Of a stretch of 41,903 nucleotides of DNA, positions 9,891-24,845 are shown piece after piece; positions within the stretch are counted from its first letter, which is position 1, and every line of letters starts with the position of its first letter. Origin of the DNA: an uncultured Bacilli bacterium. Lineage in GTDB: Bacteria > Bacillota_I > Bacilli_A > RF39 > UBA660. The notes under the pieces were generated by a model. That model was not told the origin of the DNA. It did not search any database and was given only the letters and a program-made list of their open reading frames with translations. The translations under genes were made by a program, and so were the position numbers. The stretch covers positions 1 through 41,903 of the forward strand of contig CANPZG010000006.1 in NCBI GenBank assembly GCA_947588765.1. The letters run 5' to 3'.

Positions 9891-9923
9891 AATTAACTCC
9901 TATTAACATAATAAAATTAAAAG

Positions 9924-9990
9924 TGGTTACTTGACTATTGGTTATATAACCAGTATAATGATAAGTGAATAAAATAGGTGAGTATAACCA
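9924..9990 (+). promoter_or_regulatory. Promoter of surface protein A with an operator-like palindrome in the spacer
   Basis: TTGACT (9931-9936) and TATAAT (9954-9959) are spaced 17 bp. The spacer holds the perfect 14-bp palindrome TGGTTATATAACCA (9939-9952). Half-sites repeat on both sides: TGGTTA at 9924-9929 and TATAACCA at 9983-9990. A protein on these sites would block RNA polymerase. The divergent XRE protein is the obvious candidate. AAGGAGA at 10004-10010 serves ATG 10019. Confidence 0.75.
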
Positions 9991-10018
9991 AGATATATAA
10001 TAGAAGGAGAGTAGTACC

Positions 10019-11905
10019 ATGGAAGATAAAAATAAAAGAAAAGGAATAATATATTTGGTAATAGCAGTAGTAACATTACTAGTGTTAATAGCAGGAGCAA
10101 CATATGCCTACTTTCAAGCAGTAACTGGTAATGGAGCAAATGCAAATATAAATGTGGGAGCAGGAACAACAGATCATTTAACATTCACTAAAAGTGGTGA
10201 TATAGCTTTAAATGTATCAGCGGATAATTTAAGTGAAGGTGATGGACTAGGTGTTTCAGAACAAACTAATGTAACAGCAACATTAGTAGCAAATAATACC
10301 CAATTGCCAACAGAAGAATATAAATATAATGTATATTTAGAAGTATTAGAAAATGATTTAGAGTATTCATCATATGAAACGGGAGCAGAACCTTTGGTAT
10401 TCAAAAATGAATATGATAAAACCTTAGGAAATAATAGAGATTATAATGGTTTAACAAATGGATATGAACCAAGACCAGAATTATTTTTAACAATAACGGC
10501 ACCAAGTGGTTTTAATAAAGAAATAGAAGGATTAAAACAAGCAACATTAACAAGTGATAATGATAGTTATGATATAACAGAATTAAGAGAAGGGATATAT
10601 GCCTTAGCCGAAGATTTTCCAATACAAGTAACAGCTACTGAAGAAGCTCATCAAAAGACAGATACATGGAAAATAACAGTAACATTTAAGAATTTAGATA
10701 GTGACCAACAATTAAATACCAACAAAAAATTTAGTGCAAGAATAATAATCCAAGCAGAAAAGATAGCAAATGATTTATCAGATGTATGTAGTGAAGGTGA
10801 ATTATTTGCAGATTGTATCAAAGAATTACATGATAAAAGTGTATATGGAGCAAGTAATTTAATATATCATGATGGAGAAGATGATGAAGCAAAAGGAGAA
10901 ACTTCTGGAGACTTAGAAGCCGGAGATAATTCATATAGATATGCAGGTTCATATGAAAAGGTAAATAACTATATTTGTCTTGGAACAAGTTGTACTGAAA
11001 ATTCTGATAACCTATTTAGAATAGTAGGAATCTTTGGAGATGATGGAATAAAAGTAGTAAAAGCTGATTATGCTAATAAAGAATTATTAGGTGAAGGATC
11101 AACAAAACCTGAAGGTGATGATGTAGATACAACAACGCATGGTTCACGTTATACAGGAAATCCTTATCAAGCAACAACAGGTAATAATGAAGAAAAAGAT
11201 GGATTTACACATAGATATAAAGGAAGTCTTAATCAAGTAGATAGATATAGATGGCAAGAAAACGGAAGTGAATCAACACCGGCAGATTGGAAAACAGCAT
11301 TATTAAACACGATTCATTTAAATACAAATTATTATAGTAAAATAGAGGACTCTTATAAAAGTTTAATAAAAAAGCATACATGGATATATGGAAATAAAAA
11401 TGCATCATGGGGTAATATAGCAACAGCAAAAGATGCGAAAACAGTATATAATAATGAATTAGGAACAAATGCTAAAGAAGAACAAAAAACAGATTTTCAA
11501 AATATAGGATTATTATATGTAAGTGATTATTTATATGGAGCAACACCAAACAATTGGAATAAACAACCATCTACAGGAACATGGAATTATAATATGAACT
11601 CAGGTAAAACTGATAAGGAAGGTAATCCAGCGGGAAGTTTTCCAGAAACACAAGTAAATAATGATTACCGCTCAGTTACAGATAGTAACTGGTTATACAT
11701 GGGCTTATGGGAATGGTTAATAACCATAAATAACGACCGTACCATTCCTGTCGGTGCGTTCCATGTGCGTGCTCCCGGTGATGTCCGCAGCTACTACGTC
11801 GGCACGCACCCGTTTGTGGTCCGCCCGTCCTTTTATCTCGAATCTAACGCGAAATATAAAAGTGGAACTGGCACAGCTTCAGATCCGTACATAATTTCTC
11901 AATAA
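10019..11905 (+). CDS. Surface protein A: SipW-type signal, TasA/camelysin-like N-domain, C-type-lectin-like variable tail
   Basis: 628 residues. Residues 1-30 form an uncleaved-looking basic and hydrophobic signal (KRKGIIYLVIAVVTLLVLI, then AGATYAYFQA) typical of SipW-dependent secreted proteins. About residues 35-245 form a beta-rich domain shared with the proteins at 23139 and 33824 (TTDHLTF, ADNLSE, LEYSSY, DTWKITVTFKNL, QQLNT). The C-terminal part ends in WLYMGLWEWLIT, then AFHVRAPGDV, VVRPSFYL and SGTGTASDPYIIS, resembling C-type-lectin-like tails of such proteins. There is no LPXTG anchor. The DNA for the last 60 or so residues changes abruptly to GC-rich, unlike the rest of the gene. 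Probably displayed on the surface or in the matrix; ligand unknown. Confidence 0.8.
   Translation: MEDKNKRKGIIYLVIAVVTLLVLIAGATYAYFQAVTGNGANANINVGAGTTDHLTFTKSGDIALNVSADNLSEGDGLGVSEQTNVTATLVANNTQLPTEEYKYNVYLEVLENDLEYSSYETGAEPLVFKNEYDKTLGNNRDYNGLTNGYEPRPELFLTITAPSGFNKEIEGLKQATLTSDNDSYDITELREGIYALAEDFPIQVTATEEAHQKTDTWKITVTFKNLDSDQQLNTNKKFSARIIIQAEKIANDLSDVCSEGELFADCIKELHDKSVYGASNLIYHDGEDDEAKGETSGDLEAGDNSYRYAGSYEKVNNYICLGTSCTENSDNLFRIVGIFGDDGIKVVKADYANKELLGEGSTKPEGDDVDTTTHGSRYTGNPYQATTGNNEEKDGFTHRYKGSLNQVDRYRWQENGSESTPADWKTALLNTIHLNTNYYSKIEDSYKSLIKKHTWIYGNKNASWGNIATAKDAKTVYNNELGTNAKEEQKTDFQNIGLLYVSDYLYGATPNNWNKQPSTGTWNYNMNSGKTDKEGNPAGSFPETQVNNDYRSVTDSNWLYMGLWEWLITINNDRTIPVGAFHVRAPGDVRSYYVGTHPFVVRPSFYLESNAKYKSGTGTASDPYIISQ
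11734..11840 (+). other. GC-rich patch in the 3' end of surface protein A
   Basis: By my count 66 of 107 bases are G or C (about 62%), while flanking DNA is strongly AT-rich. Codons change from A/T-ending (ata, aga, gca) to gtc, cgc, ccg, gcg and ttc. Many positions predicted to be exposed carry NNC or NNT codons (cat, cgt, gct, ccc, gat, cgc, agc, ggc, cac). The patch ends just before the conserved SGTGTxSxPYIIS terminus. It looks like a replaced cassette or a diversified region. Confidence 0.75.
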
Positions 11906-11949
11906 TTAAATAACAAATAATTCAATACATTACATAATATATATTATAG

Positions 11950-12192
11950 GTGATAATTATAATTTCTATTGTAATAGGTATAATATTATGTAGTATTGGA
12001 TTATTTTTATTATTAATTTATTTAAATTTATTTACAATTGGGTATAGTTTTTTAGATTTTGTTTATTTTATTATTAGAAACCCATATATGTATACTTTAA
12101 TAATAGGTATATTATTTATTTACTATGGTTTAGAAAGGAAAAAGATAAATGAATTTTTATTACGACATCACTTTAGATTTTTTAGAAAATAG
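11950..12192 (+). CDS. Small membrane protein with two transmembrane segments
   Basis: 80 residues with two hydrophobic spans (IIIISIVIGIILCSIGLFLL and MYTLIIGILFIYYGL) and a basic C-terminus. The frame has no ATG near its start. GTG 11950 overlaps the only ribosome-site-like sequence (GGTGAT); an ATA at 11959 sits where an ATG would be expected, so the start is uncertain. The 3' end overlaps the next gene by 44 bases in another frame, implying coupling. Function unknown. Confidence 0.55.
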   Translation: MIIIISIVIGIILCSIGLFLLLIYLNLFTIGYSFLDFVYFIIRNPYMYTLIIGILFIYYGLERKKINEFLLRHHFRFFRK

Positions 12193-23116: not shown

Positions 23117-23138
23117 AATGATAGGAAGGATGTATATT

Positions 23139-24845
23139 ATGGAAGAGCAAAATAAAAGAAAAAGTATAATATATTTAACAATAGGAGTATTAACATTAGT
23201 TTCTTTAGTAGTAGGTGCAACATATGCATACCTTCAAGCTCAAGTAAAAAATGGTACTAATGCAAGTGTAGATATAACATCAGGTTCAACAGATCATTTG
23301 GTATTTGCAACAGATGGTAATATTACTATTAATGCTAGTGCCGATAATTTTAAAGAAAATGGTCTAGATTTAAGTGATACAGCAACTGCTTCAGCGATAT
23401 TAACAGCTAATAATACTACTCATATAGCAAATGATACCTATAATGTATATTTAGATATAACAAATAATAATCTAGAATATAGTTCATATAAAAAAGAAAA
23501 TGATACAAAAATATATTTAAAGAAAGAAGTAAAAGAAGAAGATATAACAAATGGAATACTCGATACATATACTCCAATACCAGAGTTATACTTAAAAGTA
23601 GATGGGCCAACAACATTTAATAAAAAAATAAATGGCTTAAATTTAGATAGCGAAGGATATGATATAACCGAAAAAAGAGGATTAATAACCATAGCAGAAG
23701 ATGTACCAATAAGTACAACAGCACCAGAAGGAATGACAACAGATACATGGACAATAACAATAACATTTAAAAATTTAAAAACCAATCAACAATTAAATAC
23801 AGGAAAAGAATTAAAAGGAAAGATAATAATTCAAAAAGAAAAACTAGTATTAAGTAAATTACTAGCCGATGCCAATAAAGAAGGAGAAGAACCAACATTA
23901 CTATATCATGATGGACAAAAGGATTATGCAAAAGAAGCTAATTATGCCTTAGAAGCTGAAGATTATTCATATCGATACACAGGTGGAAATGATGTAGTAA
24001 ATAATTATGTATGTTTTGGAGGCGACTGTTCTAATGAGCCAACAAATGATAATTATGCCAATCTATATAGAATCATAGGATTATTTGATGATGATAAAGA
24101 TGGTGTTTACAATATAAAATTAATAAAGGCAGACTATGCAACCGAAGATGAAACTGGTGGAGAAGGAATAGGTGCAAGGAGTAATAGTTATTATGATATC
24201 GATGAAAGTATATATCAAGGAAAATTAACAACAGTGCCAAAATATTATTGGAATAATGATACAAATAATAATAATTGGGGAGAAAGTAATTTAAATACTA
24301 AAAATTTAAATGAATTTTATCTAAATTACATAAAAGGAAAAGAACCGGAAACAGAAAAATGGTACAACATGATAGAAGACCATACATGGACAACAGCAGG
24401 AAATACGGAGGAAAATATATATTATAGTCAAAATGCAAAAAATACATATAACAATGAAATAAAAAATCCAGCAGTAGGAGCAGCATTATCAACAGCAGTA
24501 GCAACATACCCAGCTAGAGTAGGATTAATGTATATAAGTGATTATATGTATGGAGCTAGTCAGAAAAATTGGACAACAGTGGCTAGCGAATATAGTTCAG
24601 CAGTAGTAAATAATTGGTTATATTTGGGATTAAATGAATGGTTTATTACACGTAATGCTAGTTTAATGGGTAGCACATATATTATTGATGAGACTGGAAA
24701 TAGTACTCATCGGTACATTTCAGATAATTATAGCGGACTTACATACTATGATTATACAATTCGTCCTGTTATGTATCTTAATTCCAATGTCAAAATTACT
24801 TCAGGAACTGGTACATCTTCTAATCCTTACATAATTTCACAATAG
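23139..24845 (+). CDS. Surface protein B: SipW-type signal, TasA/camelysin-like N-domain, lectin-like tail
   Basis: 568 residues. ATG 23139 (MEEQNKRKSIIYL) matches the start of surface protein A and has AAGGA 8 bases upstream; an ATG at 23118 is too early. A signal helix (IIYLTIGVLTLVSLVVG, then ATYAYLQA) is followed by the shared beta-rich domain (STDHLVF, ADNFKE, LEYSSY, DTWTITITFKNL, QQLNTGKE) to about residue 235. The C-terminus ends in WLYLGLNEWFITR, TIRPVMYLNSN and SGTGTSSNPYIIS, aligned with the tail of protein A. Codon use changes in the last 190 or so bases from A-ending to T-ending codons. Likely secreted or surface-displayed. Confidence 0.8.
   Translation: MEEQNKRKSIIYLTIGVLTLVSLVVGATYAYLQAQVKNGTNASVDITSGSTDHLVFATDGNITINASADNFKENGLDLSDTATASAILTANNTTHIANDTYNVYLDITNNNLEYSSYKKENDTKIYLKKEVKEEDITNGILDTYTPIPELYLKVDGPTTFNKKINGLNLDSEGYDITEKRGLITIAEDVPISTTAPEGMTTDTWTITITFKNLKTNQQLNTGKELKGKIIIQKEKLVLSKLLADANKEGEEPTLLYHDGQKDYAKEANYALEAEDYSYRYTGGNDVVNNYVCFGGDCSNEPTNDNYANLYRIIGLFDDDKDGVYNIKLIKADYATEDETGGEGIGARSNSYYDIDESIYQGKLTTVPKYYWNNDTNNNNWGESNLNTKNLNEFYLNYIKGKEPETEKWYNMIEDHTWTTAGNTEENIYYSQNAKNTYNNEIKNPAVGAALSTAVATYPARVGLMYISDYMYGASQKNWTTVASEYSSAVVNNWLYLGLNEWFITRNASLMGSTYIIDETGNSTHRYISDNYSGLTYYDYTIRPVMYLNSNVKITSGTGTSSNPYIISQ

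Follow-up and report, generated by a model that had tools for sequence, protein, structure and literature searches.

The GC-rich end of a gene for a predicted surface protein in an uncultured Bacilli bacterium is the variable region (VR) of a remote target of a chromosomal diversity-generating retroelement (DGR), a reading to which we assign a probability of about 95%. The gene lies in the 41.9-kb stretch of DNA (41,903 nucleotides of contig C6) that was analyzed as a whole and is referred to here as the window. The matching template repeat (TR) and a DGR-type reverse transcriptase (RT) are encoded on another contig of the same genome (C26), and the VR differs from the TR only at template adenines. 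In this AT-rich genome, a trans DGR target could thus be recognized from base composition and codon pattern with both template and RT out of view.

The GC-Rich Patch and the Target Gene

The following features were delimited in the window:

10019–11905, plus strand: gene of the remote DGR target, a predicted exported surface protein of 628 aa (based on the ORF, a weak SipW-type signal match, and paralogs)
11650–11719, plus strand: conserved coding stretch 5' of the VR, NDYRSVTDSNWLYMGLWEW, common to other targets and to paralogs without a VR
11745–11827, plus strand: VR matching the C26 TR, with A-only differences from it
11816–11827, plus strand: A-free 3' end of the VR, GTGGTCCGCCCG, candidate IMH-site equivalent, where the TR/VR match stops
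11828–11902, plus strand: constant C-terminal coding tail SFYLES...SGTGTASDPYIIS, absent from the TR, its DNA shared by several targets
23118–24845, plus strand: paralog, also in the window, that lacks a VR of the C26 TR (control; phmmer 8e-95 to the target)

The initial annotation had described a segment of 107 bases with about 62% G+C and a change in codon choice, located just ahead of a fixed C-terminal end, and each of these observations holds. Positions 11734–11840 have 61.7% G+C, the top value among all 107-bp segments of the window (mean 25.6%, sd 5.9%; z = 6.1); the runner-up elsewhere reaches 44.9%, and the target gene outside the patch has 30.5%. The composition boundary is sharp, GC3 is 69% in the VR versus 12% in the remainder of the gene, and the patch adjoins the constant ...SGTGTASDPYIIS C-terminus. 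The unit common to window and template, 11745–11827, is slightly narrower than the patch and sits at the 3' end of the gene, with 26 codons, stop included, from VR end to gene end. The tail of the control paralog is AT-rich (L062, GC 0.31) and fits none of the TRs tested (p = 0.22).

The A-free sequence GTGGTCCGCCCG is unchanged in the TR and in four of six clean VRs, with one and two changes in the remaining two; by analogy with BPP-1 it is a candidate equivalent of the IMH site. A GC-rich hairpin is conserved after the cis VR on C26 and is not present after the trans VRs.

The N-terminus of the target protein matches the SipW-type signal at 14.6 bits, below the cut-off of 19, and a SipW-type signal peptidase scoring above its cut-off is encoded elsewhere in the genome; judged from these sequences, export is likely. 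The target proteins would then be displayed at the surface, where VR-containing proteins may bind a ligand or partner. DUF6273 was matched in 5 of 11 relatives of the target protein. The AlphaFold model has a mean pLDDT of 63, with low confidence across the VR, and a Foldseek search with it gave no C-type-lectin match; a PDB sequence search with the protein gave no convincing match. The description of the tail as C-type-lectin-like is plausible. The tail has no match in phages, so nothing points to a phage as the source of the target.

Template Repeat, RT, and Accessory Genes

The genome searched was the window's own, a draft metagenome-assembled genome (MAG) of 1.27 Mb in 58 contigs that is 92% complete (G000). 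With the tail as query, it yielded eight further full-length tails and one short match on C26, and an RVT_1 search placed an RT directly past that short match:

C26:14340–14419, minus strand: TR, near-identical to the VR, differing at template A
C26:14201–14341 (L024:5202–5342), minus strand: structured RNA directly 3' of the TR, recognized by covariation
C26:12393–13466, minus strand: DGR-type RT, 357 aa, with an RVT_1 match and the motifs IGNMTSQ and YMDD
C26:12146–12403 (L024:3147–3404), minus strand: 85-aa ORF overlapping the RT 3' end, conserved in related loci

The initial annotation had found neither RT nor template in the window and had proposed a template acting in trans, to be sought as a near-identical repeat that differs only at its adenines and lies beside an RT gene. 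The window does lack both: the three RVT_1 genes of the genome sit on C2, C22, and C26, and the masked-template pattern matches nothing on C6 beyond the VR itself. The repeat at C26:14340–14419(-) is directly upstream of the MutS-I-like, Avd-like, and RT genes and is the template that had been anticipated; a genome without template or RT, the first half of the outcome that would have spoken against the proposal, is excluded. Two of the RVT_1 genes appear by sequence reading to be of other kinds, one retron-like (C22:6417–6983) and one group II intron-like (C2:14488–15108).

On the minus strand of C26, the C-terminal part of a cis target is followed by the TR, the structured RNA, and ORFs of 124, 125, 357, and 85 aa, which correspond to a MutS-I-like gene, Avd, RT, and a small ORF. 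DGR-type RTs are recognized by an IGxxxSQ-type motif together with YxDD; this RT, with matches to RVT_1 and to a phage RT family, lies less than 1 kb from the TR. The Avd-like 125-aa ORF matches phrog_3206 ‘Avd protein of DGR’ (8e-10) and NCBIfam DivGenRetAVD (1.3e-6, under the curated cut-off), and bAvd was matched in 16 of 21 relatives. MutS domain I was matched in 19 of 21 members of the 124-aa family, and a MutS-like accessory gene of DGRs has already been described. The 85-aa ORF downstream of the RT has 17 matches at E < 1e-3 among 25 related loci and no match to known families, and may be a further DGR accessory gene. Profile comparison of P0005 with P0003 gave a probability of only 13%, so a common origin is not claimed; a PDB sequence search with protein P0005 found no convincing match.

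The DGR locus is chromosomal, since rplI, dnaB, and an Rpn-family gene are found on C26 as well. An exact masked-TR scan over viral contigs gave no match, and phage relatives of the RT are distant only. The window and the TR are on separate contigs of a draft MAG that were joined by binning; they are tied together by the TR/VR match and by the genome of a sibling species (G025), described below.

Adenine-Specific Differences

All counts refer to the 80-bp C26 TR (23 A and 57 other bases), whose counterpart in the window is 11747–11826. The window VR is changed at 16 of 23 template-A sites and at 0 of 57 non-A sites (Fisher p = 9e-12). Five other VRs are similarly clean, with p from 2.5e-7 to 5e-10 for the A bias; their differences from the TR at A and non-A sites are, respectively, 13 and 0 (cis VR on C26), 14 and 0 (C7), 13 and 0 (C55), 12 and 1 (C1), and 14 and 3 (C10:3.8k). 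The 138 template-A sites of these six VRs are occupied by 56 A, 36 G, 24 C, and 22 T, and the A-site pattern is unique to each VR, no two being alike. Three further VRs have diverged more: two retain an A bias (C10:28k, with 16 A-site and 10 non-A differences; C2:38k, with 14 and 7), and one contains indels (C10:9.6k). We infer that these are older, decaying VRs.

The suggestion that the NNC and NNT codons of the tail derive from mutagenized AAC and AAT is borne out by the template, which has nine AAY codons and four codons of the ACN/TAC type, with the changes falling at template As. As AAY can only become NNY, no stop codon can arise at AAY sites, and each VR has 15^9 x 4^4 (~9.8e12) possible protein variants. 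The A-poor non-variable codons of the TR, together with the mutation of its As to G, C, or T, account for a GC-rich, NNY-rich patch in a region of 25% GC. When the gene is compared with its nearest paralog (C10:3.8k), codon positions 1/2/3 show 8/7/3 changes in the VR versus 33/28/54 in the N-terminal 250 codons, and amino-acid difference is 44% versus 22%.

Target Family and Probable Turnover of Target Sites

The genome encodes about 30 paralogs of the target. Some nine genes of the family, at dispersed loci, fit the single TR, comprising the six clean VRs (0–3 non-A differences) and the three decaying ones; about 20 other paralogs have the target domain but no VR fitting the C26 TR. The DNA just 3' of the VR is nearly identical among several targets. 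Since fresh, ageing, and absent VRs coexist, it can be asked in this genome how targets are recruited, kept, and retired. One paralog has a GC-rich, VR-like tail (L058, C13:34437–34691; GC3 0.60) that fits the TR of a sibling species (15/31 A, 4/39 non-A, p = 4e-4) better than its own; it is possibly a fossil of another, lost template.

The DGR core of the sibling species matches that of G000 (RT 92% identical, the three other genes 87–94%). It has its own TR, which differs from the G000 TR at two bases across the 80-bp core, and about ten targets of its own. The target genes of the two species are mostly non-syntenic, the exception being C10:28k and a target on C5 of the sibling. Six of the ten sibling VRs (two on C16 and one each on C7, C5, C35, and C1) read TAT/GTC, and the current sibling TR reads TAC/GTT, which suggests that these VRs record an earlier template state and predate a change in the template.

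The site of the target gene itself (window 9900–12150) is upstream of conserved genes for an 80-aa protein, a 209-aa protein, and a lipoprotein. Other family members occupy this site in three related genomes (G022, G023, and G024), and no target-family member is present at it in the sibling species. Compared in this way, it looks like a variable site.

A Structured RNA 3' of the TR

G000 and the sibling species hardly differ in the 140 nt that follow the TR, and the RNA structure at this position is conserved across 15 loci as five helices with 30 pairs. In the alignment 97.8% of cells are paired and 23 of the 30 pairs have compensatory changes; covariation was equally high in 0 of 500 shuffled controls, and pairing falls to 41–48% when the pairing partner is slid by 1–3 columns. 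In the last hairpin the loop, TACG, is invariant, while its stem varies between species. The closest Rfam family is RT-14 (RF02921; 32 bits, E = 0.005, gathering score 48.1), with a match that spans the full model, has the same orientation, and lies directly 3' of the TR; no match to RT-14 at the gathering threshold was found in eight named relatives. The RNA is a relative or sister family of RT-14 and, by Rfam's rule, a non-member. This covarying RNA also suggests that RT-14-like RNAs in Rfam are DGR template RNAs.

A model of this RNA (R1) has a single match in G000 and matches in 25 of the 30 species of the genus, and so can serve to locate DGR templates directly. R1 matches occur in two genomes in which an RT relative was not found (G009 and G016); these RNAs are possibly templates left after RT loss, or reflect assembly gaps. 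A locus from a rabbit MAG (Lapin-017 bin4; L125:3950–5180) contains four tandem TR-plus-RNA units ~310–340 bp apart, whose TR copies differ from one another partly at A positions, as if the templates themselves had been rewritten.

cDNA synthesis in Bordetella phage BPP-1 is primed by the folded spacer 3' of the TR, which also brings in RT-Avd (PMC12875486), and the RNA described here probably has the same role. By this analogy, RT-Avd would be recruited by the transcribed TR together with the structured RNA that follows it, the RT would copy the TR with random bases opposite adenines, and the mutated cDNA would replace the matching 83 bp of one among the approximately nine target genes. Retrohoming would thus occur in trans, and the DGR is presumably active today.

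Distribution

Among 30 species of the genus, 23 have an RT relative at E <= 1e-15, with stops interrupting several of these RTs; at E <= 1e-20, relatives are present in 58 of 145 genomes sampled from the family. An automated search found A-only TR/VR pairs adjoining many of the related RTs. Most of the named relatives are MAGs labelled ‘uncultured Bacilli bacterium’, and rabbit samples (‘Lapin’) are the source of many. In two genomes the DGR RT carries stops and is split by ~1.8 kb at the same point (G004:C1:108116–111059 and G006:C3:63753–66693), and RTs are also broken in G003, G012, G022, and G028.

Alternative Explanations

The window VR could be a past DGR product that is now frozen, its gene being a retired remote copy spread by duplication from another target. 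The dispersal of the targets, mostly non-syntenic between species, is compatible with such a history, as are the three clearly decaying VRs elsewhere in the genome and the absence at the window VR of the hairpin found after the cis VR. However, the window VR is as clean as the cis VR, and the lack of any non-A difference from the current TR implies that it was last rewritten recently relative to neutral change. Moreover, at the A sites it has bases unlike those of the cis VR and of all other VRs, which places its rewriting later than any duplication. We consider a frozen copy unlikely, though it is the most credible of the alternatives. For the tail to have been swapped among paralogs by ordinary homologous recombination or cassette exchange, without mutagenic retrohoming, is far less probable. 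The flanking sequence is common to the ~30 paralogs, and the near-identical DNA just after the VR in several targets may reflect gene conversion, but recombination cannot restrict differences to template adenines, as in the four VRs with 0 non-A differences; every VR has an A-site pattern of its own, and TR, RT, and Avd are all present. The tail swap that the initial annotation offered as an alternative is accordingly not needed, the cleanest VRs having retained all non-A template bases.

An origin by horizontal transfer of GC-rich DNA, or by faulty assembly, would agree with the abrupt composition boundary (z = 6.1). Yet nine paralogs, spread over different contigs, carry the patch in frame, as do about ten genes of the sibling species, and each set fits the TR of its own genome; the composition of the patch is explained by an A-poor template and A-to-N change, and the template on C26 contradicts a foreign or artefactual origin, to which we give almost no credence.

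Comparison with Known DGRs

One close parallel is the DGR of Treponema denticola, which has up to seven targets (TvpA and others), some of them ‘suspicious’ with excess mutations (PMC4891356). Both are bacterial chromosomal systems in which one TR and one RT serve dispersed targets that are predicted to be exported (exported or lipoprotein in T. denticola). They differ in phylum and target family, in the number of targets (about nine here, six clean), in the N-terminal signal (SipW-type-like here, lipoprotein in T. denticola), and in the MutS-I-like accessory gene and covarying 3' RNA found here. Remote variable proteins and a remnant VR are known from cyanobacteria (PMC7517822), and population data support trans diversification in Thiohalocapsa PB-PSB1 (PMC10907252). 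These systems share with the present one RT-distant targets with TR/VR homology and remnant VRs. Most of their targets, however, are CLec-domain sensor or conflict proteins located inside the cell (PMC7517822, PMC10907252), whereas ours are predicted surface proteins with a DUF6273-like region, in which a CLec fold is unconfirmed. The BPP-1 DGR likewise has a TR, a VR at the target 3' end, Avd, RT, and a structured spacer 3' of the TR (PMC12875486), but it is phage-borne with one cis target, while the system described here is chromosomal with many trans targets, a MutS-I-like gene, and an 85-aa ORF.

We tentatively propose, at somewhat less than even odds, that these loci form a genus-wide DGR subtype of uncultured gut Bacilli, a generator of surface repertoires with one template and many targets. 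In such a subtype, a single TR would continually rewrite a dispersed, non-syntenic family of exported proteins undergoing birth and death, by means of a distinct template-RNA family and a four-gene core that includes the undescribed 85-aa ORF after the RT. As a natural case of a single template with about nine genes for predicted surface proteins as its targets, this small gut bacterium lets one ask if hypervariability of surface proteins is important for living in the animal gut. Multiple VRs are present in 28.6% of DGRs in one survey (PMC6642488). Dispersed remote DGR targets are already known, and the case described here is an unusually large and well-resolved example, in which the RNA family of this group and the small ORF downstream of the RT may be new.
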